The notes under the pieces: model-generated
Databases searched by the model: none
What the model saw: only the letters and a program-made list of their open reading frames with translations
Told to the model about the DNA's origin: nothing
Source of the DNA: Gemmatimonadaceae bacterium
Lineage (GTDB): Bacteria > Latescibacterota > UBA2968 > UBA8231
NCBI GenBank assembly: GCA_002726335.1
Contig: PBSR01000017.1
Coordinates: 17,429-81,428 of the forward strand
Direction of reading: 5' to 3'
DNA length: 64,000 bases
In this document: piece after piece, positions 7,863-39,013 of the stretch
Numbering within the stretch: the stretch's first letter is position 1
How the letters are laid out: each line of letters begins with the position of its first letter
Translations under genes and position numbers: made by a program

Positions 7863-8387
7863 CTACAGGCCCAGAATCTCGCGGGTCATCTTCTGCAGGT
7901 TTCGATAGTCCGTCAGCTCGTAGCGGTTGCCGTCGGCGTCCTCCACCAGAGCTCGGTTCCTCGACAGCACTCGAATACTTGAGCGAATGCCGCGGATCTC
8001 GATCTGTCGCGCCCCACTCGTCGTCTCCACGTCGGCGTGGACGACGCCGAACTCCTCGCCGATGTGGGTCACGGCGAGGATCTTCGGCAGGAAATAGGTC
8101 AGCGCCAGCTGTTCGTCGAGGGCCGCCCGGCTGTCGCTGTCGAGGCCGCCGGGATCTTCCAGGATGCCAAGCTCATCGCCATCGGTATCGAAGAAACCCA
8201 GGTATCGATCTGCCGCTTCCAGGGGAAAGGCACGGCGCACAGTGACATCTTCGTAGTCTTCGGCGCCGATGCGCACTGCCAGCAACCCGCGCTCTGTGCG
8301 CCGGATCTGCATCTGCGCTGCCACAAGGAGCGCGGCGCCGGTGTCGAGGCCCGGCTCGGTCCGGAGTCCCCCGTCACCGCCACTCAC
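7863..8387 (-). CDS. DUF1854 protein, cyanophycin-cluster type
   Basis: A 174-residue protein with the DUF1854 pattern: VTVRRAFPLEAADRYLGFFD, then DEELGIL-like text (DGDELGILEDP), LTYFLPKILAV and a final VEDADGNRYELTDYRN. In many bacteria this family sits beside cyanophycin synthetase and a dedicated ABC exporter, but its biochemical role is unknown. Here its start codon overlaps the stop of the upstream ABC transporter (ATGA), showing translational coupling. No cphA or cphB lies in the window. No signal peptide or membrane span is visible, so it is probably cytoplasmic. Confidence 0.8.
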   Translation of the reverse strand: MSGGDGGLRTEPGLDTGAALLVAAQMQIRRTERGLLAVRIGAEDYEDVTVRRAFPLEAADRYLGFFDTDGDELGILEDPGGLDSDSRAALDEQLALTYFLPKILAVTHIGEEFGVVHADVETTSGARQIEIRGIRSSIRVLSRNRALVEDADGNRYELTDYRNLQKMTREILGL

Positions 8388-10624
8388 AGAGCTCTCACTT
8401 TGGCCAGTTCCGTCTGCATGTCGACGAGGTTGCGGTAGACACCTTCCTCCTGCTCAAGCAGCGCGGCATGTGAGCCCTCCTCGACGATCCGACCCTTGTC
8501 CAGGACGAACAATCGATCCGCGTTCTTCAACGTCGACAGACGATGAGCGATGGCGAAGGTCGTGCGGTTGGCCGTCAATCGCTCCAGTGCCTCCTGGATC
8601 TCGAATTCGGTCTGCGTGTCCACCGAGCTTGTGGCTTCGTCGAGGATGAGGACCCGGGGATTGCCGATGAGCGCTCTGGCGATGGAGATCCGCTGCCGTT
8701 CGCCGCCGGAGAGACGACCGCCGCGCTCGCCTACCTCACTGTCGTAGCCGTCGGGAATCTTCATGATGAACTTGTGGGCATTGGCGGCCCGCGCCGCAGC
8801 GATGATCTCGGAACGGGATGCCTCAGGGCGGCCGTAGGCGATGTTCTGTGCGATGGAGCCCTGGAACAGCAGGGGCTCCTGCAGGACGACCCCGATCTGG
8901 GCCCGCAGCTTCTTCTGCTGCAGGTCGGTGATCGACACACCATCGATGAGGATCTCCCCGTCCGTCGCGTCGTAGAAGCGGGAGATGAGATTCACCAGCG
9001 TCGACTTGCCGGCACCGGAGTGTCCGACGAGGCCGATCATCTCTCCCGGTTCGACGGTGCATGACACTCGGTCCAGGATGCGGGCAAAACCGTCGTAGGT
9101 GAAGGAGACATTACGGAACTCGACGCGCCCCTCGATCACGCCCGGGTCCTTCGCGTCGGGCCGGTCCATCACCTCGGGTTCGGTATCGAGGATCTCGAAA
9201 ACCCGCTCGGCTGTGGTGGCCGCCGACTCGAGTTCGTCCGATAGTCGGCTCAGTTCACGCACTGGGCTGAGAAACATGACCATGTAGGAGATGAAGGCCT
9301 GCAGCTCGCCCAGGGTCAGCGTGTTCTCCAGAACACGATTGCCACCGAACCACCAGAGGATGACCGAGCCCATGGAGGTGATGAAGGCGATGCCGGGCAG
9401 GAAGTAGGACTTCATCTTCACCGACACCATACGCGACTCACGCAACTCCGTATTGCGCTTGTCGAAGGTGCCGATCTCGCGGCCCTCCTGGGCGAAGGCC
9501 TTGACGACTTTCACCCCGGGGATCGTATCCGCCAGCTGCGAGTTCAGTGCCGAAATGCGCCGCCAGATCGTGTGGAACACCCAGTGGATCCGTTTGCGGT
9601 AGAACAAGGTGACGGCAAGCATGATCGGCGTGGGGATCAGCGCCAGCAGGGCCAGCTCCCAGTTCATCCAGAACAACGCCCCGCCGATGCCGAGCAGTGT
9701 CAGGATGGCGATGACCATGTCCTGAAAGCCAGTGGTGATGAAACCGCGCATGCGCTCCGTATCGCTCGTCACGCGGGTCATGATGCGGCCAGTGGAATGC
9801 TGGCTGTAGAACGACAGGGACAACAGCTGCAGATAGTTGAAGATCTCGGTTTGCAGGTCGTACGTGATGCGTTGACCCAGCCACCCGAGCGTGTAGGAAC
9901 GCACGCCGTTGATCAGCATGCGACTGAAGTGGATGGAAAGCAGCCCCATGACGATCCACAACAGGTCATCGACGTACCCCGCCTCCGGTATCATCGGCCC
10001 CAGATCTAAGTCCTGCCGGCGGACACCCTCGGCGTCGGTGCCCATGTAGTCGGAGATAACGGGCGTGATCACATCGTCGATGAGCCGTCGGTTCAGCTGC
10101 GGCGGCAGCATGCCGATGGCCGTCATCGTCAGGGTCAGAACAAACCCGAAGATGGCCACCTTCTTGTACGGCTTGACGTAGGAGAACAGTCGCCAGAAGG
10201 TTTCGCGTTTCTTGATGCAGGCGGGGCAGACCTTCGAACCGGCCCGCAAGGCGCGGCCGCAGGTCTCGCAGTGTTCGACGCGCCGGTGCGGGATGGCGCC
10301 ATCGTCGTCGTCCTCACCCACCCGGACCGTGGGACTGGCCATGGCTGCTTCCACGACCTGCGGGATGGACGAGAACTTGAAGTAGTTGCCCTGGGAGAAA
10401 CGGACGAGCTCGTGCATGCCGTCGGGCATGTCGATGACGAGTGAACCGTTGCCGACGTAGCTGCGCGTCTGGATGCGCTTCACCTCGGCCAGCGGAAAGG
10501 TATCGACTCGCGGCGCGCCACCATTGGCGTGCAATACGAGGATGCGCTCGTCCGTCAGAACGAGCCAGTTCTCACCGTAGCGCCCGTCGCGATCCAGATC
10601 GGCGACCAGCAAAGCGAGGAGCAA
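8384..10624 (-). CDS. ABC exporter with N-terminal PH-like and zinc-ribbon segments
   Basis: A fused half-transporter. Residues 1-100 look PH-like (LTDERILVL... FPLAEVKRIQ), then a zinc ribbon CETCG...CPAC near 118-135 precedes a six-helix exporter membrane domain. The ATPase shows Walker A GHSGAGKST, signature LSGGERQRIS and Walker B VLILDEATSSVD. This architecture with DUF1854 next door matches the ABC transporter of cyanophycin-associated loci; the substrate is unknown. The start is uncertain: TTG 10624 falls inside conserved-looking sequence. The frame stays open upstream to 10795 and reads plausibly (PFPPSEEIAATDLLEP), but contains no ATG, GTG or TTG. An out-of-frame ATGATG sits at 10759-10764, so a rare start or a base error is possible. 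Confidence 0.88.
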   Translation of the reverse strand: MLLALLVADLDRDGRYGENWLVLTDERILVLHANGGAPRVDTFPLAEVKRIQTRSYVGNGSLVIDMPDGMHELVRFSQGNYFKFSSIPQVVEAAMASPTVRVGEDDDDGAIPHRRVEHCETCGRALRAGSKVCPACIKKRETFWRLFSYVKPYKKVAIFGFVLTLTMTAIGMLPPQLNRRLIDDVITPVISDYMGTDAEGVRRQDLDLGPMIPEAGYVDDLLWIVMGLLSIHFSRMLINGVRSYTLGWLGQRITYDLQTEIFNYLQLLSLSFYSQHSTGRIMTRVTSDTERMRGFITTGFQDMVIAILTLLGIGGALFWMNWELALLALIPTPIMLAVTLFYRKRIHWVFHTIWRRISALNSQLADTIPGVKVVKAFAQEGREIGTFDKRNTELRESRMVSVKMKSYFLPGIAFITSMGSVILWWFGGNRVLENTLTLGELQAFISYMVMFLSPVRELSRLSDELESAATTAERVFEILDTEPEVMDRPDAKDPGVIEGRVEFRNVSFTYDGFARILDRVSCTVEPGEMIGLVGHSGAGKSTLVNLISRFYDATDGEILIDGVSITDLQQKKLRAQIGVVLQEPLLFQGSIAQNIAYGRPEASRSEIIAAARAANAHKFIMKIPDGYDSEVGERGGRLSGGERQRISIARALIGNPRVLILDEATSSVDTQTEFEIQEALERLTANRTTFAIAHRLSTLKNADRLFVLDKGRIVEEGSHAALLEQEEGVYRNLVDMQTELAKVRAL

Positions 10625-24413: not shown

Positions 24414-24731
24414 ATGAACGACCTGACCAGCGCCGGTGACAGTCCCCTCTTCGATGGTACCAGCTTCCTCAACGGCATCCTCGGCCTCGTCGACAGCCTG
24501 CTGGCCTTCTATCTCATCGTGATCCTTGCCCGGGTCATCATCTCCTGGGTCAATCCCGATCCCTACAGCCGCATCGTGCAGATCCTCTGCGGTCTCACCG
24601 ACCCGGCGCTGAATGCCGTGCGCCGCCGGCTTCCTGCCTTCTTCTGGAGCGCCGGCCTCGACTTCACGCCACTCGTGCTGGTTCTCCTGTTGCAGGTGGC
24701 CCGGCTATTTCTCGGAAGCCTGCATCTGTGA
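24414..24731 (+). CDS. yggT: YggT family membrane protein
   Basis: A 105-residue protein with two hydrophobic helices flanking a conserved loop: LLAFYLIVILARVIISWVNP, then the polar loop PYSRIVQILCGLTDPALNAV, then FTPLVLVLLLQVARLFL. The loop pattern IxxxTxPxLxxxRR identifies YggT/YlmG, linked to cell envelope or division functions. ATG 24414 lies four bases after the yggS stop. Its own stop overlaps the GTG start of ileS (GTGA), so translation is coupled. Confidence 0.88.
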   Translation: MNDLTSAGDSPLFDGTSFLNGILGLVDSLLAFYLIVILARVIISWVNPDPYSRIVQILCGLTDPALNAVRRRLPAFFWSAGLDFTPLVLVLLLQVARLFLGSLHL

Positions 24732-27700
24732 GTGCCGCCTTCTCGAACGCGGAAAACGGATCCTTCTTCGGCGCGGTTCCGGGTCACCCCGACTTCCCGG
24801 CCCAGGAACGGGCCGTGCTGCAGGGCTGGCTCGACGGCGACCTCTACCGCAAGTCGGTGGAGAGCCGGCCTGCGGACCGGGCCTTCCACTTCTATGACGG
24901 CCCGCCTTTCGCCACCGGGCTGCCGCACTACGGCCACCTGCTGGCATCGATCACCAAGGACGTGGTACCTCGTTACTGGACCATGCGCGGCTATCGCGTC
25001 GAGCGTCGCTGGGGCTGGGACTGCCACGGACTGCCCGTCGAGAATGAAGCCGAGCAGCAACTGGGCCTGAAGTCGCGTCGCGACATCCTCGAGTACGGTG
25101 TGCCGCGCTTCAACGAGTTCTGTCGCTCCGTCGTCCTGCGCTACACAGCAGAGTGGCAGGAGCTGATCCAGCGTCTCGGCCGCTGGGTCGACTGGGACAA
25201 TCAGTACCGGACGATGGACCCTGACTTCATGGAATCGGTGTGGTGGGTGTTCAAGTCGCTGTGGGACAAGGACCTCATCTACAAGGGCTACAAATCTCTG
25301 GCCTACTGTCCGCGGTGCGCGACGCCGTTGTCCAATTTCGAGGTCAACCAGGGATATCAGGACACGCAGGATCCGTCGATCACGGTGCGCTTCCAGGTAG
25401 CCGATCAGCCGGGTCTGTCGCTGCTGGCCTGGACGACGACCCCGTGGACCCTGCCATCCAACATGGGTCTCGCCGTAGGTCCCGAAGTCGACTACGTGCG
25501 TGTCACCACGACGGGCGGCGAACAGCTGATCATGGCGCGGGCTCGTCTCGAGGCGATGTTCAAAAAGCGCGAATCGGAGATCGGCAACGTCGAAGACATG
25601 GCTGTAGCCGATCTGGTGGGTCTGCGTTACGAGCCGCTGTTCCCCTACTTTGCCGACCTGGCCGCAGAAGGCGCCTTCCAGGTTGTGGCCGCCGATTTCG
25701 TGTCGACTGAAGACGGCTCCGGCATCGTCCACATCGCCCCCGGCTTCGGTGAGGAGGACTACCAGCTCGGCCAGCGTGTGGGTCTGCCCACGGTGTGCCC
25801 CATCGATGCCGACTGTCGCTTCACCGACGAGGTATCGGACTTTGCGGGTGAGTTCGTCAAGGACGTGGACACGCCCGTGATCCGCCATCTGCGAAGCACG
25901 GGGCAGCTGTTCAGCGAGGGCTCCATCGAGCACAGCTACCCGTTCTGCTGGCGCTGCGACTCGCCCCTCATCTATCGCACGATCTCGACCTGGTTCGTGC
26001 GCGTCGAAGGTGAGTTGAAAGAGAAGATGATCGCCGCCAACCAGAAGGTGTGGTGGATCCCCGAGCACATACAGGACGGTCGTTTCGGCAAGGGACTCGA
26101 AAGTGCACCGGATTGGGCCATCAGCCGCAATCGCTACTGGGGCACGCCGCTGCCGATCTGGCGCAACGAAGAAACGGGCGAAGCGGTCTGCGTCGGCAGC
26201 CGGCAGGAATTGTGCGACCTGACAGGTCAGGACGTCGACGACCTGCACAAGCACGTCATCGACGAACTTGAGATCCCCTCACCCACGGGTCAGGGCACCC
26301 TGCGGCGAATCCCTGAGGTCCTCGACTGCTGGTTCGAGTCGGGATCGATGCCCTACGCGCAGAAGCACTACCCCTTCGAGGGACGCCAGCAGTTCGAAGC
26401 CGACTATCCCGCCGACTTCATCTCCGAGAACCTCGATCAGACCCGTGGCTGGTTCTACACGCTCACCGTGCTCTCGGCGGCGTTGTTCGACTCGCCCGCG
26501 TTCAACAACTGCATCGTCGGTGGCATGCTGCTGGCCGAAGACGGACGCAAGCTGAGCAAGCGGCTGCGCAACTACCCCGACCCGTCCGAGATGCTCGAGA
26601 CCCATGGCGCCGATGCCCTGCGTCTGTACCTGCTGAACTCACCAGCCATGAAGGCCGAGGAGCTGCGCCTCACCGAAGACGGCATCCGCCAGAGTCTGCG
26701 GGACGTCATCATCCCCTTGTGGAACTCGTACAGCTTCTTTGTGCTCTATGCCAACATCGACGGCTGGTCGCCACTCAAAGGGGCTGGCCTGACGGCGACG
26801 AACCGTCTCGATCGCTGGATCCTGTCAGAATTGCAGACTCTGGTGCACAACATCAACGAAGAGATGGAAGCCTACCGTCTCTATCGCACAGTGCCGGCCA
26901 TGGTGGCCTTCGTCGAGAAACTGACGAACTGGTACATTCGCCGCAGCCGTCGGCGATTCTGGAAGTCCGACGACGATGCCGACAAGGCATCGGCGTATGC
27001 CGCACTCTACCAGGTGCTGGTCACGTTTATCAAGTGCCTGGCACCGGTGCTGCCGTACGTGACCGAGACCATCTACGGCAATCTCGTGCGCTCGTGGGAC
27101 GCCGATTCGCCAGAGAGCGTACATTTGAGTGACATGCCGCTGGCCGACGAGTCACTGCGCGACGCCGAGCTCGAAGAGCAGATGGACCTCGCCATGCGCG
27201 CCTGCACTTTGGGCCGGGCCCTGCGCAGCAAACACAATCTGAAGGTTCGTCAGCCCCTGGCCCGAATCTTCCTGCTGCCCCCCGATGAACACAGCCGCGA
27301 CAAGCTGGCCCAGGTGAGCGACCTCATTGCCGACGAGTTGAACATCAAGGAAGTTGTCCTCGTGGAGGACGAATCGGAGATCAGCGAGGTCTCCTACAAG
27401 CCCAACTTCAGGGCCCTCGGGCCGCGCTTCGGCAAGCGCATGAAGGAGGTGGGCGCCGTCATCAGCCGCCTGACGCCGGAGCAGGTGCAAGTTCTGGCCA
27501 CCGGCGGGACGATCGAGGTGGCCGACGGCTCGATCGGCATCGATGACATCGAGGTACAGCGCCGCGAGCGTGATGACGTCGTCGTCGCCGTCGAGGACAA
27601 TCTGGCCGTCGGGTTGGACGTACACGTCACTGAAGAACTGGCCTGCGAAGGCAACGCCAGGGAGTTCGTCAACCGCGTGCAGAACCTGCGCAAGGACGCC

Positions 27701-27907
27701 GGACTCGATGTCTCAGACCGCATCCGCCTGTGGGTGCAGGGCAGTGAGGTGATCGAGGCCGCAGTGGCTACGTTCGGCGAATCGATCGCCGCCGAAACCC
27801 TCGCCGAAGAGATCACCGTCGGCTCCTTGCCAGACGATGGCAGGACGGTGTCCAAGGATCTGGAAGTGAACGACGAAGCCTGCGCGGTCGCCCTCGACCG
27901 GGTCTGA
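24728..27907 (+). CDS. ileS: Isoleucyl-tRNA synthetase, long eukaryote-like (IleS2) type
   Basis: Class I synthetase charging tRNA-Ile, 1059 residues. The HIGH-box equivalent is PHYGHLLASITKDVVPRYW and the KMSKS-box equivalent is DGRKLSKRLRNYPDP. The editing domain shows WTTTPWTLPSNMGLAVG. The HYGH spelling, the KRLRNYPDP continuation and the long C-terminus without the bacterial zinc finger fit the IleS2 class shared with eukaryotes and known in the family for reduced mupirocin sensitivity; applying that to this protein is inference. It starts with GTG overlapping the yggT stop. A DksA-like gene follows after 47 bases. Confidence 0.96.
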   Translation: MSAAFSNAENGSFFGAVPGHPDFPAQERAVLQGWLDGDLYRKSVESRPADRAFHFYDGPPFATGLPHYGHLLASITKDVVPRYWTMRGYRVERRWGWDCHGLPVENEAEQQLGLKSRRDILEYGVPRFNEFCRSVVLRYTAEWQELIQRLGRWVDWDNQYRTMDPDFMESVWWVFKSLWDKDLIYKGYKSLAYCPRCATPLSNFEVNQGYQDTQDPSITVRFQVADQPGLSLLAWTTTPWTLPSNMGLAVGPEVDYVRVTTTGGEQLIMARARLEAMFKKRESEIGNVEDMAVADLVGLRYEPLFPYFADLAAEGAFQVVAADFVSTEDGSGIVHIAPGFGEEDYQLGQRVGLPTVCPIDADCRFTDEVSDFAGEFVKDVDTPVIRHLRSTGQLFSEGSIEHSYPFCWRCDSPLIYRTISTWFVRVEGELKEKMIAANQKVWWIPEHIQDGRFGKGLESAPDWAISRNRYWGTPLPIWRNEETGEAVCVGSRQELCDLTGQDVDDLHKHVIDELEIPSPTGQGTLRRIPEVLDCWFESGSMPYAQKHYPFEGRQQFEADYPADFISENLDQTRGWFYTLTVLSAALFDSPAFNNCIVGGMLLAEDGRKLSKRLRNYPDPSEMLETHGADALRLYLLNSPAMKAEELRLTEDGIRQSLRDVIIPLWNSYSFFVLYANIDGWSPLKGAGLTATNRLDRWILSELQTLVHNINEEMEAYRLYRTVPAMVAFVEKLTNWYIRRSRRRFWKSDDDADKASAYAALYQVLVTFIKCLAPVLPYVTETIYGNLVRSWDADSPESVHLSDMPLADESLRDAELEEQMDLAMRACTLGRALRSKHNLKVRQPLARIFLLPPDEHSRDKLAQVSDLIADELNIKEVVLVEDESEISEVSYKPNFRALGPRFGKRMKEVGAVISRLTPEQVQVLATGGTIEVADGSIGIDDIEVQRRERDDVVVAVEDNLAVGLDVHVTEELACEGNAREFVNRVQNLRKDAGLDVSDRIRLWVQGSEVIEAAVATFGESIAAETLAEEITVGSLPDDGRTVSKDLEVNDEACAVALDRV

Positions 27908-28866: not shown

Positions 28867-29838
<972 letters not shown>

Positions 29839-29845
29839 GCCACCT

Positions 29846-30077
29846 TCAGCGGGCGCTGCCGATCGTAAAACAGGGCAGTGTGAATCTGTCCACAAAGCCC
29901 AGTCTTCTGGCCGTGGCCATCGACCCGGAGTTGCCGTAGTTCGCCGTCCATGAGGGCTCCAGGTCCGATGCCGAAGGTCGAGATGGCCCAGGCCAGCTCG
30001 TCGTTGTCGGCGGTGACAACGAAGCCGAAGCCGCCCTCGACAAAGCCGTCGAACCCACCCCAGGTGCTGCCGGTTGC
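29846..30077 (-). other. Coding-like remnant in frame downstream of the propeller gene
   Basis: Directly after the TGA of the propeller gene the same frame stays open and shows G/C-biased third positions. It reads STWGGFDGFVEGGFGFVVTA, later NDELAWAISTFGIGPGAL and DGELRQLRVDGHGQK. It has no start near the stop codon. It may be debris of another gene or a former extension of the propeller protein. I do not recognise the family. Otherwise I see nothing in this gap. Confidence 0.35.
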
Positions 30078-32936
30078 TCAGCCCTGCGTGGCGATCTCCA
30101 TCCGGCGTGCGGCCCAACCGGCGAACAGCAGGGCGGCCAGCGTCTCGAACAACAACGCCAACAACGGCACCAGGCCCTCGCGCAGGCGGGTATCCAGATC
30201 CAGTGGCGCGGGACGGAAACGTGGGATCAACTCCGGGTCCATTTCCGCCTTCGACATGTACTCCGGCAGGAACAGGATGTGTGGCGACTCCGGATCCACG
30301 GCGTCCCGCTGCTGCAGGAACTCGCGCAGCACATCGCGGTAGGCTTCGGCCTGCCGGTGAAAGTGGTCGCGCCAGACAACTCCGGTGCCCAGCAGGGCCT
30401 CCATCGGGTATTGCATGGCGTATCCAGGAGACAGCAGGCTGACGTTGCGGGCGATGGCGAAACGGTGTGACACGCGCCCTTCGATCTCGCGCAGCTTCTG
30501 CTGGGCGCGGGCGTCGGCCTGCTCCGTGCGCTTGCCGAAAACCCTCTCGACGGAATAGTTGAGATCGCGGTCCACGGCGCGGACCCGAAACACGTAGCGG
30601 CCCGGCGCCAGGGCCTGGTATTCGAGCCGTCGTTGTTCCGTGGTCTGCCATGATTCGTCCCGGCCCTCCAGCCGGTACTGATAAACCAGTCTCCCGGGGC
30701 GCGTCTTGAGGCTCAAACCCTCGAATTCGAAGACGGTCAGCCCGGTCGAGTGAGGGATCTCCACAGCCTGCGGACTCTCGTGGCGACGGTCGGCTGTTAC
30801 CGCGGTGATACGTACCTCCGGGTGGGTGTCCCGGGCGGGCCGATAGCGCGTCAGGCCGCCATCGGTGCCAAACCAGTAGTCGCCCCGTTCGTCCTGGAAG
30901 ATGGTTTCTACGATGTTGCCGGACAGACCGTCGTCGACGGTCAGCTGCTGGGCGACCTGGCCGTCGAAAAGCACCACGCCTCCGCCGCTGGTGCCGAACC
31001 ACACATGGCCGTCCGTACCGCAGAAGACCGCCCGGACTCCGACTTTCTCCATGTCCATCTTGAGCCGGGGACGGGAGAAAGACCGGCCGTCAAAGCACCA
31101 TACGCCGGCGCTTGTGCCAAGCCATATGTTGCCGTCCAGGTCCAGAGCCAGGTCGTGTATCGCGTTCATTCGCACACCATCCAGCTGCGCCTGGATGAAT
31201 TCGCGGCCGTTGAAACGTTCGAGCCGTGTTTCAGTGAGGCACCAGAGACCGCCCTCTCGATCCTCCAGCAAGGCCCTGACATTGCGGTTGCTCAGCCCAT
31301 CCTCGTCTCCGTACCATGTCACCGTTTTGCCGCTCAGACAGCTCAGCCCGCTGTCTGTTCCACCGAACCAGATTCGTCCCCCCCGGTCCTGCAGCAAGGC
31401 GACTATGTTCTCATAGCGGAACAAGCCCTCCTGTTTTCCATAGCAGGTGAACGACGTACCATCGTAGAGACAGATGCCGTTCTTTTCGGTACCGAGCCAC
31501 AGGCGACCGTCGGCGTCCCGCAATAGTGCTCCCACACTGCCGTGCTGCCAGCCGTCTTGTGTAGAATAACAGGTCAACGACGTGCCGTCGTACCGCATGA
31601 CTCCGTCCCACGTACCCAGCCACAGGTCGCCCTTCTCGTCGGCAGCGATAGCCCTGACGTGGCCGAGTGGCTCGCCATCCTCCCTCTGCACCTGCATGAA
31701 GGTATCGGCTTCAAAGCAGCTCAGACCGGTCGAGCGCCCGGCCCAGATATGCCCTTCCCGATCCTGCAGCAGCGCCTGAATGGAGTTCGTGCCCAGTCCA
31801 TCCGCCGTAGAATAAACCTGCGTGCTGTGCCCATCGTAGCGGCCCAGACCGCGCTGGCTGCCGATCCACAGGTTTCCGGCGCCGTCCTCCAGGAGGGCGA
31901 GGACTCCATGGACAATCTTTCCGGCTGCCGGCATGATGCCATTCTCCAGGTCATAGCGACCTACTCCCCCGTTGCCACCAAACCACATCTCTCCGGCGCC
32001 GTCCTCCAGCACTGCTTTGGTCCGGTATGCAGAAAAGCCATTGCTAGCGACAGCGCGAAAGGCGCTTCCGTCGTAGTGGCTCACGCCGTCCATGGTTCCG
32101 AGCCAGAGACCGCCCTGCCGATCACAGGTCATGGAAAGAATACTGTCGTGGCTCAGCCCGTCTTGACGGGTAAAAGAGGTGAAGGAGTGGCCGTCGTAGC
32201 GGCTGGCGCCACCGGCTGTGCCGAACCAGACGCCGCCCGCGGGGTCCAGGGCCAGGCAGTTGATTTTGTTGTCGACCAGTCCATCCGCCGTGGTGCAGCT
32301 GCGAAAGGACTCGCCATCGTAATAGCTGGCGCCGCTCCACGTGCCAAACCACAGGCCGCCTTGCCCGTCTTCCAGAATCGCCCTGACGCCATCGTCGATC
32401 AGACCGCTGCGCGTATCGAGCAGGGAGAACGCATGGCCATCAAAACGGATGGCTCCGCCCGGCGTGGCCGCCCATATAAACCCATGGCGATCCTGGCACA
32501 GAGCCGTTGTGTTCGTGTTGGCCAGACCATCCGTCGCGTCGAAATTACGCCAGTGACCCGGCTGGGCATTGAGGCCGGTACCGAGCGGGACAGGGAGACC
32601 GGCAAGAACCATGCTCTGCCCCTGGCCGATCGAGGTCTGGTGGATGGAGAAACCGATCTGCCGTCCTTCTGCAAAGCCAGTGACCGGCGCCAATGCCCGA
32701 ATCTGGTCCTGCCAGGCCCCATCCCGCGTGAGTCGCTCGTATCGGTGCATCCACTCTGGCACGGATTCGCCGCGAAACAGCAGCCGGACCACGGGATGGT
32801 CGGTGGAATCTTCCCGATCGAAGTCGCTGAACCCGTGCTTTTCGAACAAGGGCTTCAGTTGTTTCGCATAGACGGCATCGAAGGCAGCACGGCGTTCGGG
32901 CTGCACCCAGAAGGACCAGCGCGCTATCGTCTTCAA
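30078..32936 (-). CDS. Chimeric 14-blade Reg_prop / Y_Y_Y protein with ABC-2 permease-like C-terminus
   Basis: A 952-residue three-part protein. Residues 1-105 resemble an alpha/beta dimeric-barrel (ABM/NIPSNAP-like) domain (ARWSFWVQPERRAAFDAVY). From about 130 to 690 there are 14 copies of the two-component-regulator propeller motif (LWFGTWSGASYYDG, IWLGTSAGVWCFDG and so on), enough for two seven-bladed propellers. A Y_Y_Y domain follows (LVYQYRLEGRDESWQTTE). In hybrid two-component sensors a membrane helix and histidine kinase come next. Here the last 155 residues instead match the periplasmic part and final helix of a DUF3526-type ABC-2 permease (LLSPGYAMQYPMEALLGTG, HFHRQAEAYRDVLREFL, then LVPLLALLFETLAALLFAGW). 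No N-terminal signal is visible. Function unknown. Confidence 0.8.
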   Translation of the reverse strand: MKTIARWSFWVQPERRAAFDAVYAKQLKPLFEKHGFSDFDREDSTDHPVVRLLFRGESVPEWMHRYERLTRDGAWQDQIRALAPVTGFAEGRQIGFSIHQTSIGQGQSMVLAGLPVPLGTGLNAQPGHWRNFDATDGLANTNTTALCQDRHGFIWAATPGGAIRFDGHAFSLLDTRSGLIDDGVRAILEDGQGGLWFGTWSGASYYDGESFRSCTTADGLVDNKINCLALDPAGGVWFGTAGGASRYDGHSFTSFTRQDGLSHDSILSMTCDRQGGLWLGTMDGVSHYDGSAFRAVASNGFSAYRTKAVLEDGAGEMWFGGNGGVGRYDLENGIMPAAGKIVHGVLALLEDGAGNLWIGSQRGLGRYDGHSTQVYSTADGLGTNSIQALLQDREGHIWAGRSTGLSCFEADTFMQVQREDGEPLGHVRAIAADEKGDLWLGTWDGVMRYDGTSLTCYSTQDGWQHGSVGALLRDADGRLWLGTEKNGICLYDGTSFTCYGKQEGLFRYENIVALLQDRGGRIWFGGTDSGLSCLSGKTVTWYGDEDGLSNRNVRALLEDREGGLWCLTETRLERFNGREFIQAQLDGVRMNAIHDLALDLDGNIWLGTSAGVWCFDGRSFSRPRLKMDMEKVGVRAVFCGTDGHVWFGTSGGGVVLFDGQVAQQLTVDDGLSGNIVETIFQDERGDYWFGTDGGLTRYRPARDTHPEVRITAVTADRRHESPQAVEIPHSTGLTVFEFEGLSLKTRPGRLVYQYRLEGRDESWQTTEQRRLEYQALAPGRYVFRVRAVDRDLNYSVERVFGKRTEQADARAQQKLREIEGRVSHRFAIARNVSLLSPGYAMQYPMEALLGTGVVWRDHFHRQAEAYRDVLREFLQQRDAVDPESPHILFLPEYMSKAEMDPELIPRFRPAPLDLDTRLREGLVPLLALLFETLAALLFAGWAARRMEIATQG

Positions 32937-32954
32937 CCAATCCGACTCCTGTTG

Positions 32955-33130
32955 ACTGGCACGAGCCCAGATTCAGATCTTCAGTTGCGAACAGAAAGGT
33001 GCGGAATCGGGCGACTTTGACAAGCCCAAGCTGCCGGATCTCCTCTACGCTCTGGAGAAGCTGGCGGCGGCGATGCCGGGCCGTCGGCTCGCCGCTTGCG
33101 TCTCCTGGACGCTTGGTTCATCGTACGTCC
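32955..33130 (+). other. Coding-like debris in the divergent gap
   Basis: Between the divergent propeller gene and the gene starting at 33131, one plus-strand frame has strong G/C third positions and reads GDFDKPKLPDLLYALEKLAA, then MPGRRLAACVSW, without a usable start and out of frame with the gene that follows. It may be a gene remnant. I see no convincing promoter in this gap. Confidence 0.25.
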
Positions 33131-35269
33131 ATGCCGCAACGAGAAGAGTTGGAGCAGGCCCTGGACGCGCTGGAGGCGCAGCGGGAGACGCTGGGTGATG
33201 CGGCGGTGGAGGCGGCACAGGCCGGGCTGCGGTTGAAGCTGGCGCAGGTGCTCGCCGCCGAGAGGCCTTCGCCGCAGGCATCCACGCCGGATGTCGACGA
33301 CAGTCCAGCGCGGGCTCCCGGTGGCGGCCACGGCCCGCAGACCTACGCGGGAGATCACCGGACGAACACCGGCATGTACGAGGGAGACATCGCCCATGCC
33401 GAGGTCAACGCCGCGATCAGCGCCTCGGAGAAGGTGGTCCTTTTCGGCCAGCAGACCCGCCTGCGCTCGCGCCGGCTCATGACCGACGAACGCCTGTCGC
33501 GCATCCAGCCGGGGCATCGACTGTCGAAGTTCTTCTACGGCGGCGTGCGCCAGCTGCCCGAACGGCTGCTGGACGCGTTGCTGGCCAAGAAGGTCAGTGT
33601 CACCCTGGTCCGCGGCCGGGATCTGCTGGTGTTCCACGACCGCAGGCGTCACCAATCCTTCCACACCGGTCGCACCCGGCGCACCATCTATCTCCCTGAG
33701 CCCATCCTGGAGCACGCCTACCAGATGGGCTATGACTACTGGGCCATCGCCGAGATCCTGATCCAGGAGAGCTGGCCCCTCCTCGACTACATCCTGCTGC
33801 TGGAGATGATCGAGCGCTGCCAGGTGGCCTATGAAGATCGCTGGACGCTGGGCTATTCATTTCTACGTGAAGGCCTGCGCGCGCACAACAAGCATATGCG
33901 CGACCTGTCCGACGACTACCAGGATCTGGAGGTGGGGCTCCGCAAGGGCGACGAGATGGGAGTCTTTCTCGACACGTACATGGGCCGGCTGTGCGAACTC
34001 GACCGCAGTATCGTCGGTCGCGATCCCCACGACGTGGCGGGGGAGATCTACAAGGACGAGTGGGAGCGCTTTTCCGGGCGGGCAAAGTTGGACGAGGTGG
34101 CGACGCTGAACTCCTTCCCCACCTACTTCATGATCGACCGGGACATCGTCCATCCGGCGGCCTTCCACCGCGCCGACCAGCTCGGTCAGCCCGTCGATCC
34201 CCGGACCGCGGAGGACGCGATCCACGACCTGTGGGACGAGACCCGCTTCAAGTCGAGCCTGTCGGTGCGCACCGAGGAACTGCTGGAGCTGCTCATCGCG
34301 CTGGGAGCGCCGGGTATCCGGGCCTTTCTCATGGCCGTCTCCTTCCGCTACTCGGCGGCAGGCAGCCTCGGCAGCGACGGGCCGATGCTCGACCTCAATC
34401 GGTACGGCATGGTCGACATTTTCCGGGGCAGGATCCAGAGCTATTCGGGGTCGGGACTATCCGAGGTGCCAGGGTCGATCGGCTACGATCTGCGGCAGTT
34501 GCAGCAGTACTACGTCGCCGCCCGCCGCGCCGCCTATTTCGAGGACCTGCGTCAGCTCCCGCGCGAAGCGCTGCAGGAGCAGGCCCACGGCATCCGTGAG
34601 ACCTTGAGCCTGATCGTCGACGAAACCGTCAGCCTGGACCGGGCTCAGGAGCTCAAGGGTCAGATCGTCACGTCCCGCGACCTGACAGGCCTGCTCGACG
34701 CCGTCGAGATGGCAGTGAAGCCCGAAAGCGATGAAAGCGAACGCCAACACATGTCCGGTCTCCTGTACAAGCTCGATGAACACCCCCTGTATCACGAGCG
34801 CTTCCTGCCCGGTGCCACGCAGCTGAACGACGGCCAGCTGCCGGGTCCTCCGAGCATCCGGCCGGAGGTGCAGCGCCTCCACGGTTTCATGCCGGAGCGC
34901 TACTTCGAGCTCAGCTCGGATCCGGCCGACCTGGGATGGTTCCTGGCCCAGTTCCGTGACACCGACGAGAACGACGCCTACAACCGGCTGCTCTTCACGT
35001 GGGCCGCCGCCATCCTCGTCCGCTACGACAACTCCGAGGACTACGGCGACATGTGCTCGCAGATCGTCATCCTCGGCGAGTATGCCGTGCCGCCGCTGGA
35101 GGAGATCACCGCATCCGAGGTCTACTACGCCAGCGAGGGGCGCGGGCGTATCCTCAAGGCAGCCCAGGTGTTGCTGCCCCGGCTGCCCGACTGCCCGCGG
35201 ACACTACGCACAGAGTGGAGCGGTGAGATCGCCAGAAGGCGGGGGTTGGAGCTGGAGCCGGGGGGCTGA
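33131..35269 (+). CDS. Large protein of unknown function with a cyclase-type linker at its N-terminus
   Basis: A 712-residue protein. The start is ATG 33131 because residues 1-40 (REELEQALDALEAQRETLGD) match a helical linker otherwise found in front of adenylate-cyclase or AAA modules in some bacteria. No cyclase follows. The next part, near 110-200, has KFFYGGVRQLPERLLDALL, TIYLPEPILEHAYQMGYDYW and AIAEILIQESWPLLDYILLL. Its order recalls ATLF-type metallopeptidases, in which HExxH would sit where AEILIQE is found; this resemblance is weak and unproven. The rest is helical and acidic with no motif I know. No signal peptide or membrane span is evident. Codon use matches the neighbours. It ends convergently with the GH38 gene. 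Confidence 0.7.
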   Translation: MPQREELEQALDALEAQRETLGDAAVEAAQAGLRLKLAQVLAAERPSPQASTPDVDDSPARAPGGGHGPQTYAGDHRTNTGMYEGDIAHAEVNAAISASEKVVLFGQQTRLRSRRLMTDERLSRIQPGHRLSKFFYGGVRQLPERLLDALLAKKVSVTLVRGRDLLVFHDRRRHQSFHTGRTRRTIYLPEPILEHAYQMGYDYWAIAEILIQESWPLLDYILLLEMIERCQVAYEDRWTLGYSFLREGLRAHNKHMRDLSDDYQDLEVGLRKGDEMGVFLDTYMGRLCELDRSIVGRDPHDVAGEIYKDEWERFSGRAKLDEVATLNSFPTYFMIDRDIVHPAAFHRADQLGQPVDPRTAEDAIHDLWDETRFKSSLSVRTEELLELLIALGAPGIRAFLMAVSFRYSAAGSLGSDGPMLDLNRYGMVDIFRGRIQSYSGSGLSEVPGSIGYDLRQLQQYYVAARRAAYFEDLRQLPREALQEQAHGIRETLSLIVDETVSLDRAQELKGQIVTSRDLTGLLDAVEMAVKPESDESERQHMSGLLYKLDEHPLYHERFLPGATQLNDGQLPGPPSIRPEVQRLHGFMPERYFELSSDPADLGWFLAQFRDTDENDAYNRLLFTWAAAILVRYDNSEDYGDMCSQIVILGEYAVPPLEEITASEVYYASEGRGRILKAAQVLLPRLPDCPRTLRTEWSGEIARRRGLELEPGG

Positions 35270-35277
35270 AACCCGTA

Positions 35278-35297
35278 GAGATTCGCTTGCGAATCTC
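35278..35297. terminator. Perfect palindrome between convergent genes, possible terminator
   Basis: GAGATTCGC, two-base loop TT, then GCGAATCTC. It is located 8 bases after the stop at 35269 and 41 bases from the end of the GH38 gene. It lacks a T-run, so it could instead be a repeat-type palindrome or a protein site. Confidence 0.4.
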
Positions 35298-35338
35298 GAG
35301 GCGAGGCGCTTGGATCCCGTCCTTCTTTGAATCACCGG

Positions 35339-37933
35339 TCAGCGCCGACGTTCGACCAGATCCGCCTCTCGCCACACCAGCTTCTTGCCGCCCCGCTTCA
35401 CGGCCACCGTCGTGAGTCCATAACGTCCGATCCGCACCTTGATCTTCCGACGGAATGGTTTGACCCGCAACGACACGTGGCGTTCACGCGCCGACGTGTT
35501 CTGCAGCCGCACGATCAGCTGGCCACCTTTCTCCGAGCGCTTCAGCGCCACCACCTGGACCTGGTCGTCGTCGACGCTGACGGTGTCACTCACCTGCAAC
35601 CGGCGCTGGCGCTCGACGTGTTCAGCCTGTGGGTAATAGACCTGCCACACCGGCGGCGTGTTGAAGACCTGCGCCGCGCGACTCACCTTCGGCTCGTTGA
35701 AGCGGCCACCCACCATCACCTGCCACGACAGTTCATGCTCGCCCTGGTCCTGGCGCGGGATGAAACGGGCATTCGCACGCTCGTCGTCGGGATTCAGGTT
35801 GAACGAGCTGTATGCCGGGGCGCGGACGACGTTGAGGCCCAGTTCGCTCTCCGTCAGGCTGTGACCGAAGCTGCCCGTGTTGAGCACTGCCAGATGCACT
35901 GGCGAGTCGGCTTGTTTGCCGCGCACGGCGACCCAGCGCTGATTCGTGTGCTCCTCGTGGCGGCGAGTGGGTCGCCGGTCGGCGGCACTGTAGAGCGTCT
36001 CCGCCACGCCGTCCGTCACCTCGAAGCCGAGGGGCACCATGAGCTTGATCATCGTGTCGCGGTGATTGTTGAACAGGCGATCCCGGATCTCGAGACTGCT
36101 GTCGGAATGGCCGATCACGTACTGTCGCGCCAGGGCGCTGGCGCCGCAGACGAATACGGCCTCAACGACGGTGCGCAGGGCGCCGTGTTCAATGATGTTG
36201 ATGGGGCGCGCGACCGTGGTCGAGGCAGGCTTCCACTTGTCGGCCGGCGGCGGCGACAGCTCGGCCACCTGCTCCCGTGTGGCCAGACGGAAGCGCTCCG
36301 CCGGAGCCCGATCCCAGGGCGGCGACACCGATCCGATGTGATGCGACTTGGCCTGTCTGGGGCTGCCACTCGTCCAGCTGTGGTCCATGTCCGCCCAGCA
36401 GGCGGGTTGAAAGGCGCTCTTGCCGACCAGCGAGCGCCGTGCTCCCGGCGCGGACAGGTGATCGATCAGACCGGTACGTGGATTGATCTTCAGAGCGAAC
36501 GTCTTCGTCTTGAAAGACAGGCTGCGGGCGCTGACCTGTGGCAGACGTGGCGCCTTGCCTTTGTCGTTGATGTAGTACTCGTCGAAGCGGGAAACCTCCC
36601 AGGGCTGCAGATCCACCGTCGCCGCCAGTCGCACCCGCCAGTTGTCACCACAGCTGGCCTCGGTCAGCAGGCGCTGACAGGGCACGTCTTCTCCCTTCGG
36701 GCCCCGGAGTCGTACCTCGGGGTTGCTTACCGCCCAGGCGTTGCTGTTCAGCTGCACCTCGAACTCAACCTGCTGGCGTACGGCAAATCCGTGGGGGTTG
36801 GCGATGAAGACGGGGACCTCGTCGCGGCCGCCGTCGCCGTCACGACTTATCAGGCTCTGCAGAGAGCGCAGACGTTCCCGACGCAGAATCTCCCGGGCAT
36901 GGCCGAGCATCTGCACGCTGTCCCGTTCGGCGGAAGGGATCCCGGACCCGGGCAGAATGTCGTGGAACTCGGAAAACAGAATGTCCCGCCAGGCAATCTC
37001 GAGGGCTTTCTCCGGGTAGGTCGCCGTCCCCCACCACCACGCCAACGTCGCCAGGCGCTCGGTGGACGCCATCAGACTCTCCGCCTCCCGGTGGCCGCGT
37101 TTGACGCGACTCATCGATGTGTAGCACCCGGGGAAGCTGTTCTGGATCTCCCCCTGTACGAGAGGGAGTTGATCCATCTGCTTGAGTACGTCGTCGAAGA
37201 ACCGGTCGATCGTACTCTCGACGAATTCGTACTCCGGGTGCTGGCGCGCATACGCCTTGATGGCACGATACTCGTCGCGTGACGGCCCACCCCCGTGGTT
37301 GCCGATCCCCCACAGGATCATCGACACCGGCTCGGTGCCGAAACGGTCCAGACGGTCGGGGCCCCATTCGGCGAACTTGCCGTTCGTCAGGTAGTGATCA
37401 TTGCTGCGGCGGGCGACGATCTCGGTGCCGGAGCGATCCCGCCAGGTGAAGGGACCGGCCGGCAGCTCGTAGGTGCCGTAGTCGGGACGGCAGAAGACGT
37501 AGCGCTCCATACCGCAGCCGGCCAGGATCTGGGGAAACCCCTCGCCGTGTCCGAAGGGATCGAAGTTGTAGGCAGTGCGCGGGTATCGCCCGAAGGTTTT
37601 CTCGAAGTACTCTCTTCCCAGCAAAAACTGGCGGATGTGACTCTCGCCCGAGGTGTTGTTGACGTCCGGCTGCAGATAGGCGCCGCCCGAGATCTCCCAT
37701 TGCCCCTTCTGCACAAGGCGTTGGATCCGCTTGAAGAGCTGTGGTTCGTACTCCTGGGCCCAGCGATAGAGGATTACCTCGTTGTGGTTGAAGACAAACT
37801 CGGCGTTGGCTTCACAGAAGTCTGCGGCCGTGCGGTACGTCGACAGCGCCTCGGTGAGTCCATCCTCCCAGTGCCACAGCCAGACCGGGTCGAGGTGGGC
37901 GTTACAGACCAGGTGGATTCTCTTAGCAGCCAT
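35339..37933 (-). CDS. GH38 alpha-mannosidase
   Basis: Glycoside hydrolase family 38, 864 residues, which cleaves alpha-mannosides. The catalytic domain starts with the zinc motif NAHLDPVWLW (H13, D15). The nucleophile is D125 in AYNFDPFGHGEG. Other family blocks are ISGGAYLQPDVNN, ESLMASTERLATLAW and SEFHDILPGSGI. The C-terminal half is the usual beta-sandwich region with ALRTVVEAVF. No signal peptide is present, so it is probably cytoplasmic and acts on imported oligosaccharides. It lies 57 bases downstream of the Gfo/Idh/MocA gene on the same strand, which fits a sugar-degradation operon. Confidence 0.92.
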   Translation of the reverse strand: MAAKRIHLVCNAHLDPVWLWHWEDGLTEALSTYRTAADFCEANAEFVFNHNEVILYRWAQEYEPQLFKRIQRLVQKGQWEISGGAYLQPDVNNTSGESHIRQFLLGREYFEKTFGRYPRTAYNFDPFGHGEGFPQILAGCGMERYVFCRPDYGTYELPAGPFTWRDRSGTEIVARRSNDHYLTNGKFAEWGPDRLDRFGTEPVSMILWGIGNHGGGPSRDEYRAIKAYARQHPEYEFVESTIDRFFDDVLKQMDQLPLVQGEIQNSFPGCYTSMSRVKRGHREAESLMASTERLATLAWWWGTATYPEKALEIAWRDILFSEFHDILPGSGIPSAERDSVQMLGHAREILRRERLRSLQSLISRDGDGGRDEVPVFIANPHGFAVRQQVEFEVQLNSNAWAVSNPEVRLRGPKGEDVPCQRLLTEASCGDNWRVRLAATVDLQPWEVSRFDEYYINDKGKAPRLPQVSARSLSFKTKTFALKINPRTGLIDHLSAPGARRSLVGKSAFQPACWADMDHSWTSGSPRQAKSHHIGSVSPPWDRAPAERFRLATREQVAELSPPPADKWKPASTTVARPINIIEHGALRTVVEAVFVCGASALARQYVIGHSDSSLEIRDRLFNNHRDTMIKLMVPLGFEVTDGVAETLYSAADRRPTRRHEEHTNQRWVAVRGKQADSPVHLAVLNTGSFGHSLTESELGLNVVRAPAYSSFNLNPDDERANARFIPRQDQGEHELSWQVMVGGRFNEPKVSRAAQVFNTPPVWQVYYPQAEHVERQRRLQVSDTVSVDDDQVQVVALKRSEKGGQLIVRLQNTSARERHVSLRVKPFRRKIKVRIGRYGLTTVAVKRGGKKLVWREADLVERRR

Positions 37934-37990: not shown

Positions 37991-39013
37991 TCACAGAGCA
38001 GTCCCTGCCTCGCCGGCATCCGCCGCTGCCTGCACGCGCAGGACCGTCTCCGATGAGTCCAGCACCTGCTGCGTTGAGGGCTCGCCGTCGTCCAGCGTCT
38101 CCCCGCGGATCGTCTTGAGAAAGGCACGGAAGTACCCGCCGCTGTTGCCCGCTGGCAGTTCACGGCGCTCCGTCTCCTTGCCACCGGCCGTCGTCAGCGC
38201 CAGATGCTCCATGTTGGTTGCGGTTTCGATTACGCCCTCCCGTCCCCAGAACGTCGTGCGCCAGTAGTAGGGCATGCTGTAGCCGGCGGCGTCCGGGGCG
38301 TGATAGGAGACGTCACCGACCACGCCGCAACCGTTGTCCATGGTCAGCAGCATCTGGGCGCCGTCCTCGAAGTGCGGTACGCCGTCGGCAAAGGCATTCC
38401 AGCAACGTGCCGCCTCCACCCGGGCGAACTGCCATCCCGTGACAAAGGGAATGCTGTCGATGGCGTGGACGGCGATGTCATTGATCGTGCCGCCGTGCAT
38501 GCCTTTCTCCCAGTACCAGTCAGGCCTCGAGTCGAGCAGCAGAGGATGCTGACCACCGAACTGGATGGCGTGGATCTCACCGATGGCCCCGGCGCGAATC
38601 AGCTGACGGGCGGCGATGGTGCCGGCTGAGTCCCGCATCGTCAGCATGCAGCCCACCTGCAGCTTGCTCTGCGCCGACAGTTCGCGAATCCGGTCGAGTT
38701 CCTCCAGTCGTGTGCACAGCGGCTTGTCGACTATGACGTGTCGACCTGCCTCCAGGGCGGCGATGGCGCGGCCGCCCCGCAGGCCGAAGGCGTCACCCAC
38801 GGCCACGACGTCACAGTCGACCTCATCGAGCAGACGCCCCGCGTCGTCGTGGGTGATGTCGACCACACCCTTGCTCCGCAGGCTCTCCCGCGTGGGACCG
38901 TGTTCTTCGCAGGCAGCCACGACGGCCACCCCCGGGGTGCTGGCAGCCAGGTCGTAGAGGCTGGTGATGTGGCCGTGGCGGAAGCCGACGAAGGCGAGGC
39001 GGAGTTCAGGCAC
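37991..39013 (-). CDS. Gfo/Idh/MocA family oxidoreductase
   Basis: A 340-residue NAD(P)-dependent sugar or inositol dehydrogenase-like enzyme. The Rossmann start is RLAFVGFRHGHITSLYDLA, where the usual GxGxxG is changed to GFRHGH, a variation seen in some members. VIVDKPLCTRLEEL holds the conserved lysine of the (E/D)KP motif. GGTINDIAVHAID near residue 180 carries the catalytic His. It probably oxidises or epimerises a sugar, and its position just upstream of the GH38 mannosidase suggests a shared glycan. The exact substrate cannot be deduced. Confidence 0.88.
   Translation of the reverse strand: MPELRLAFVGFRHGHITSLYDLAASTPGVAVVAACEEHGPTRESLRSKGVVDITHDDAGRLLDEVDCDVVAVGDAFGLRGGRAIAALEAGRHVIVDKPLCTRLEELDRIRELSAQSKLQVGCMLTMRDSAGTIAARQLIRAGAIGEIHAIQFGGQHPLLLDSRPDWYWEKGMHGGTINDIAVHAIDSIPFVTGWQFARVEAARCWNAFADGVPHFEDGAQMLLTMDNGCGVVGDVSYHAPDAAGYSMPYYWRTTFWGREGVIETATNMEHLALTTAGGKETERRELPAGNSGGYFRAFLKTIRGETLDDGEPSTQQVLDSSETVLRVQAAADAGEAGTAL

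Follow-up and report, generated by a model that had tools for sequence, protein, structure and literature searches.

A 14-blade Reg_prop sensor half fused in frame to the end of a NosY-like ABC-2 permease: a likely lineage-specific recombination product

The open reading frame at 30078-32936 of the DNA analyzed here (a stretch of 64,000 nucleotides, hereafter termed the window) was shown to encode a protein in which the sensor half of a Reg_prop regulator runs in frame into the end of an ABC-2 permease. This fusion gene is likely a lineage-specific, in-frame recombination product without a normal function, and it appears to have arisen once, within a single lineage, and not to represent a novel type of sensing machine. 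The features discussed below are as follows.

30078..32936, minus strand: fusion gene, 952 amino acids (ORF call and translation)
32946..32950, minus strand: AGGAG, likely ribosome-binding site, 9 nt before the TTG start (sequence)
32601..32936, minus strand: N-terminal domain of NIPSNAP/ABM fold, residues 1-112 (predicted fold)
30813..32552, minus strand: 14 Reg_prop blades, residues about 129-708 (Pfam, match to 4a2l, motif count)
30558..30701, minus strand: Y_Y_Y domain, residues 746-793 (Pfam match)
30549..30560, minus strand: joint, residues 793-796 (alignments of sensor relatives and permeases)
30078..30557, minus strand: permease tail, residues 794-952 and stop, comprising the last loop with DUF3526 and the final helix (Pfam, permease alignment)
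30120..30176, minus strand: single membrane helix, residues 921-939 (hydropathy; equivalent to the last helix of the permeases)
29839..35338, no strand: 5.5-kb block holding the fusion gene and its 712-aa neighbour, in place of about 1 kb with one phosphotransferase-like ORF in genomes G002 and G003
33131..35269, plus strand: divergently oriented 712-aa gene next to the fusion gene (without a family match in Pfam or NCBIfam)

The reading frame starts with TTG behind AGGAG, a likely ribosome-binding site, and none of the 12 codons between the start and the preceding stop is ATG, GTG, or TTG. In the Pfam search of the protein, Reg_prop (E 3e-60), Y_Y_Y (residues 746-793, E 4.6e-10), and DUF3526 (residues 801-877, E 8e-8) all scored above the gathering cut-offs. 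The blade motif D/E/GxxGxxW was found 14 times at a spacing of 39-43 residues, whereas 1000 shuffled sequences had 0.85 on average and 5 at most; by analogy, 14 blades would fit two seven-bladed propellers. Neither a histidine kinase nor a receiver family was detected by Pfam at E values up to 1, and the combination of Sigma54_activat and HTH output was likewise absent. Hydropathy identified one hydrophobic helix (residues 921-939); judged by hydropathy and reading frame, the protein carries no signal peptide, as there is no N-terminal hydrophobic stretch and the upstream stop lies 12 codons away. A full-length AlphaFold model (mean pLDDT 37) was set aside. These results were in good agreement with the preliminary description of the protein, which had claimed 14 Reg_prop motifs and a Y_Y_Y domain, a C-terminal match to DUF3526-type permeases, and one membrane helix with no kinase. 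Two minor points had to be corrected: the permease part has 159 residues (794-952) instead of 155, and the gene is on the minus strand.

The ABM/NIPSNAP-like domain that had been proposed for the N-terminus was upheld at the level of predicted fold. A single-sequence model of this N-domain (mean pLDDT 74) matched NIPSNAP proteins in the PDB with a best E of 2.7e-5, and 24 PDB chains with identities of 6-22% were obtained at E up to 0.001. At the sequence level, residues 1-112 gave no family match above a curated cut-off, a profile of five N-domains reached its best NIPSNAP chain (5ixu) in the PDB sequences at E 0.29, and a protein database search with the N-domain returned two candidates, neither of them significant.

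The window is Latescibacterota-like: at 24728-27907, Pfam identifies a class I tRNA synthetase gene, presumably of the isoleucyl type, and its nearest relative, 87% identical, belongs to a Latescibacterota bacterium MAG (locus L001 of genome G001). The N-domain and the tail were searched for in 64 genomes of the phylum of G001. The N-domain gave 37 matches in 12 of these genomes, 17 of them in G060 alone, and 11 frames with an N-domain, among the longer ones of the 37, were scanned by Pfam for their outputs. Sigma54_activat was the commonest (six of the 11: L142, L152, L201, L205, L208, and L210), followed by HisKA/HATPase (L209 and L214) and by SpoIIE (L212), PAS (L213), and a TPR-type end (L144) in one frame each; a DUF3526 end occurred in none of the 11. 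On this comparison, the N-domain, propeller, and Y_Y_Y together are an ordinary Latescibacterota sensor module with interchangeable outputs. The earlier view that a permease end stands in place of a histidine kinase thus held for the permease end, and not for the kinase as the specific output that was lost. Hydropathy analysis of seven sensor frames showed no helix in five, namely L151 and four with Sigma54_activat (L142, L152, L201, and L208). L144 and L214 have a hydrophobic stretch ahead of the N-domain, and hence not all such sensors are cytoplasmic.

The six Sigma54_activat frames are regulators composed of a NIPSNAP-like domain, Reg_prop, and Sigma54_activat, and they look like cytoplasmic counterparts of the periplasmic Reg_prop sensors. 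Since no paper on propeller plus sigma-54 regulators was found in an open library of 5.39 million papers, this group of NIPSNAP/double-propeller sigma-54 regulators, brought to light by the study of the fusion gene, may be little described.

A tree of 21 sensor halves gave no firm position for the fusion protein, whose branch length of 1.11 (median 0.54) was exceeded by those of L144 and L147, nor did it assign an output type to the parent. The fusion protein was represented by residues 126-795, and the other rows, of 720 residues at most, stopped at the DRDL motif, except that L205, L210, and one L153 row were cut elsewhere and end without it. Supported clades paired unlike outputs (PAS with sigma-54, and kinase with SpoIIE), which is consistent with repeated output swapping.

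The junction between the two parts was delimited by alignment. On the sensor side, similarity to L142 and L152 extends down to 30552 of the window, and four permeases align from 30557, 30560, or 30584, so that sensor and permease homology adjoin to within some two codons (residues 793-796), where six permeases read [YF]-[AD]-x-E-[RKH]-R. In 10 of 24 sensor frames, the Y_Y_Y domain ends in AVD[RK]DL[NV]YS, with several others stopping before the motif, and the position of this motif in the relatives is where the tail of the fusion protein begins. The alignment ends and the motif position place the joint at the Y_Y_Y boundary at which the sensor family attaches its output module. Base composition also differed across the joint: G or C was found at the third position of 550 of 745 codons in the N-domain and propeller, as compared with 134 of 159 tail codons (Fisher p 0.006, uncorrected for amino-acid make-up). 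As the GC3 of seven other window genes ranges from 0.786 (a pseudouridine synthase gene) to 0.861, the sensor half, not the tail, is the low part. The joint and the separate homologies of the two halves support the suggestion made at the outset that the gene was assembled by recombination. When the rest of the window was searched with two sigma-54 regulators and four permeases, no leftover sigma-54 or permease parts were detected.

The tail search in the 64 phylum genomes yielded 49 matches in 18 genomes, and six of the closest full-span matches (L119, L120, L121, L122, L159, and L155) were compared. All six contain ABC2_membrane_2; DUF3526 scored above the cut-off in L119, L120, L121, and L122 and below it in L159, and was not listed for L155. 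By hydropathy, four of them have six helices, L119 has seven stretches, and L122, the sequence of which is cut by a contig end, has five. A profile of the six matched the core of NosY (7o0y) with E 7.7e-10, and L119 resembled GldF weakly, scoring far under the cut-off. The fusion tail is 42-47% identical to these permeases over the last loop and final helix, the only parts that it spans; five of the six permease helices and the ABC2_membrane_2 core are absent from the fusion protein.

Of the 44 residues invariant in the six permeases, 38 are kept by the tail. When each permease was left out in turn, the tail kept fewer invariants than the omitted permease in five of the six comparisons (80-87% vs 88-96%; for example, 39 vs 44 of 47 and 40 vs 44 of 50) and more in the remaining one (46 vs 44 of 54), the permeases themselves ranging from 44 of 46 to 44 of 54. 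By this measure, the tail has diverged a little further than the majority of the permeases, while staying within the span set by the most divergent of them, and it keeps codon periodicity. The loop that precedes the last helix presumably lies outside the cytoplasm in the parent permease. The absence of a signal peptide makes this topology unavailable to the fusion protein, and the orientation of helix 921-939 is ambiguous because arginines flank it on both sides.

Among the permeases of this kind, seven tail-like matches fall within 50 kb in G006 (C1, 5210256-5259229), an expanded cluster of such permeases. In the close relative G001, the permease (C165; L091 and L123) and an N-domain Reg_prop gene (C218; L145) both lie in split frames, which are either pseudogenes or draft-assembly errors. 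No paper on DUF3526 with ABC-2 was found in the open paper library.

The combination of sensor and tail was seen in a single protein cluster. None of 46 tail-bearing frames in 42 phylum loci contains the sensor half (the loci overlap, so the distinct frames are fewer, and not every one of the 49 matches has a locus). In a database of 5.8 billion proteins, 2152 candidates had 0.55-1.75 times the length of the fusion protein, and of these only the window's own cluster carries the tail. The other genomes with the same three-part order whose search had been advised were thus lacking among the phylum loci checked and, beyond the window's own cluster, among the database proteins of similar length. 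This cluster comprises nine member sequences on 25 contigs (the longest of 507 kb), some of which may stem from repeated assembly of the same samples. No further tail copies were obtained from a contig scan of GTDB r220 (37 pattern matches, no relative), from viral contigs (two pattern matches, no relative), or from plasmids. In a shorter length range, the protein search gave one further tail protein, P0003, in which an N-terminal fragment of UvrD precedes a tail 76% identical to that of the window over 92 columns, with a similar share of invariants (e.g., 24 of 28). As it stands on a contig of 1856 bases and its UvrD half matches phylum helicases only moderately (best 4.6e-11), P0003 is a probable assembly chimera and was not counted as another case of natural fusion. 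It does show that the tail has a close relative in a different source.

In G002 and G003, about 1 kb with a phosphotransferase-like ORF (Pfam APH in L002) lies between a pseudouridine synthase gene and a family 38 mannosidase gene. In the window, 5.5 kb separate the pseudouridine synthase gene (28912-29838, presumably rluD-like) from the mannosidase gene, the tail end of the fusion gene facing the synthase and its sensor end the mannosidase side. Relatives of the divergent 712-aa protein were found in six of nine genomes searched, with up to seven matches in one genome, and all listed matches start at residue 55 or later. No transporter, partner permease, or ATPase gene was found beside the fusion gene (28912-29838, 32999-35269, 35339-37933, and 37991-39013 were scanned); an ABC exporter is located at 8384-10624 of the window. 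A repeat search of 29700-35500 revealed no mobile-element ends, the direct repeats being confined to the propeller coding region and the inverted ones to three weak pairs. The intergenic region 29838-30084 showed neither a Pfam match nor convincing similarity to the loci compared, and no tRNA or Rfam element was found in the window.

We propose that recombination in this lineage joined in frame the sensor half of a regulator with a NIPSNAP domain, 14-blade Reg_prop, and Y_Y_Y, itself probably cytoplasmic, and the 3' end of a NosY-like, DUF3526-bearing ABC-2 permease gene, the joint being placed where the sensor family attaches its output module. The product would keep the whole sensor half with its own start signal and end in the last loop, helix, and stop of the permease; the output lost would, by analogy with the relatives, most likely be a sigma-54 activator module. 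Such a protein would presumably serve neither normal signalling nor transport: the sensor half would bind what its relatives bind with no output domain left to relay the signal, and its final helix might provide a membrane tether, making it at most a membrane-tethered ligand-binding protein.

The intact frame and the nine cluster sequences on 25 contigs argue against this reading and imply that the fused gene has persisted; the invariant permease residues and the codon periodicity kept by the tail count on the same side. The frame and the cluster would also suit a functional new architecture, namely a cytoplasmic double-propeller sensor that is anchored by the permease-derived helix and has no output domain of its own, acting for instance by sequestering a ligand or by pairing with an intact sensor paralogue via the N-domain. 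The preserved start signal and all 14 blades, the 38 invariant permease residues, the joint at a module boundary, and the output swapping seen in the supported clades fit this possibility as well. We nevertheless regard it as unlikely, since no second lineage with the sensor-plus-tail order appeared among the phylum loci or the database proteins of similar length, the tail is poorer in invariants than the permeases in all but one leave-one-out comparison, and the sensor branch is about twice the median, though two rows are longer. Moreover, the loop is one that presumably lies outside the cytoplasm in the parent permease, yet no signal peptide is present. It is slightly less probable still that the last loop and helix of the permease were reused as the anchor of a soluble 14-blade sensor, yielding a receptor tethered to the membrane that has no output of its own and acts by way of partner sensors.

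That an assembler joined two unrelated genes is quite improbable. The tail of P0003 behind a UvrD fragment indicates that such joints may arise artificially near this sequence, and the 25 contigs could in part be repeated assemblies of the same samples; against this stand the recovery of the cluster on so many contigs, one of them of 507 kb, the position of the joint in frame at a module boundary, and the synteny with G002 and G003. Because the synthase and mannosidase genes are neighbours there, a single false joint would need to reunite syntenic neighbours, which makes a one-joint chimera unlikely, while two false joints around an insert may be compatible with the synteny. Least probable of all, and very much so, is a part of a ligand-gated transporter, with the propeller as ligand sensor and the tail associating with a separate permease or ATPase. 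The permeases L119 and L121 do adjoin a second, larger ABC-2 permease-like gene (NCBIfam matches below the cut-off) and may work in pairs. The fusion gene, however, is flanked by the pseudouridine synthase gene, a gene with no family match, and the mannosidase gene, and its product lacks the ABC2_membrane_2 core. With no signal peptide, no output domain, and five of six permease helices missing, a propeller-gated permease is unsupported, and the earlier idea of a propeller sensing a ligand beside a permease fragment is not borne out.

In the preferred reading as a recombination product, the fusion falls at an output boundary that has been used repeatedly, the same sensor module occurring in combination with ends of the sigma-54, kinase, phosphatase, PAS, or TPR type. 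If the protein is not functional, it serves as a warning that three clean domain matches in one ORF need not represent a working architecture. A functional protein would illustrate how sensors may come to gain a membrane anchor, and the reuse of the permease end, if true, would be a module swap from transporter debris to a signalling part.

Compared with known systems, the N-domain shares a predicted alpha+beta fold with the NIPSNAP/antibiotic biosynthesis monooxygenase proteins (5k9f and 1vqy), differing from them in the lack of a family sequence match. The tail has the last loop and helix in common with the NosY-like ABC-2 permeases with DUF3526 (PF12679), from which the fusion protein differs by the absence of the first five helices and the ABC-2 core. 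The hybrid two-component Reg_prop sensors 4a2l, 3v9f, and 3ott, presumably of the HTCS type, have a double-propeller sensor half like that of the fusion protein (4a2l match, E 2e-46); in contrast to them, the fusion protein has no signal peptide, kinase, or receiver, and carries a NIPSNAP-fold domain in front and a permease tail behind. The Latescibacterota Sigma54_activat regulators L152, L142, and L201 share the N-domain, propellers, and Y_Y_Y, with L152 aligning over residues 1-795 at 34% identity. These three regulators have no predicted membrane helix. In the fusion protein, a permease tail takes the place of the output module.
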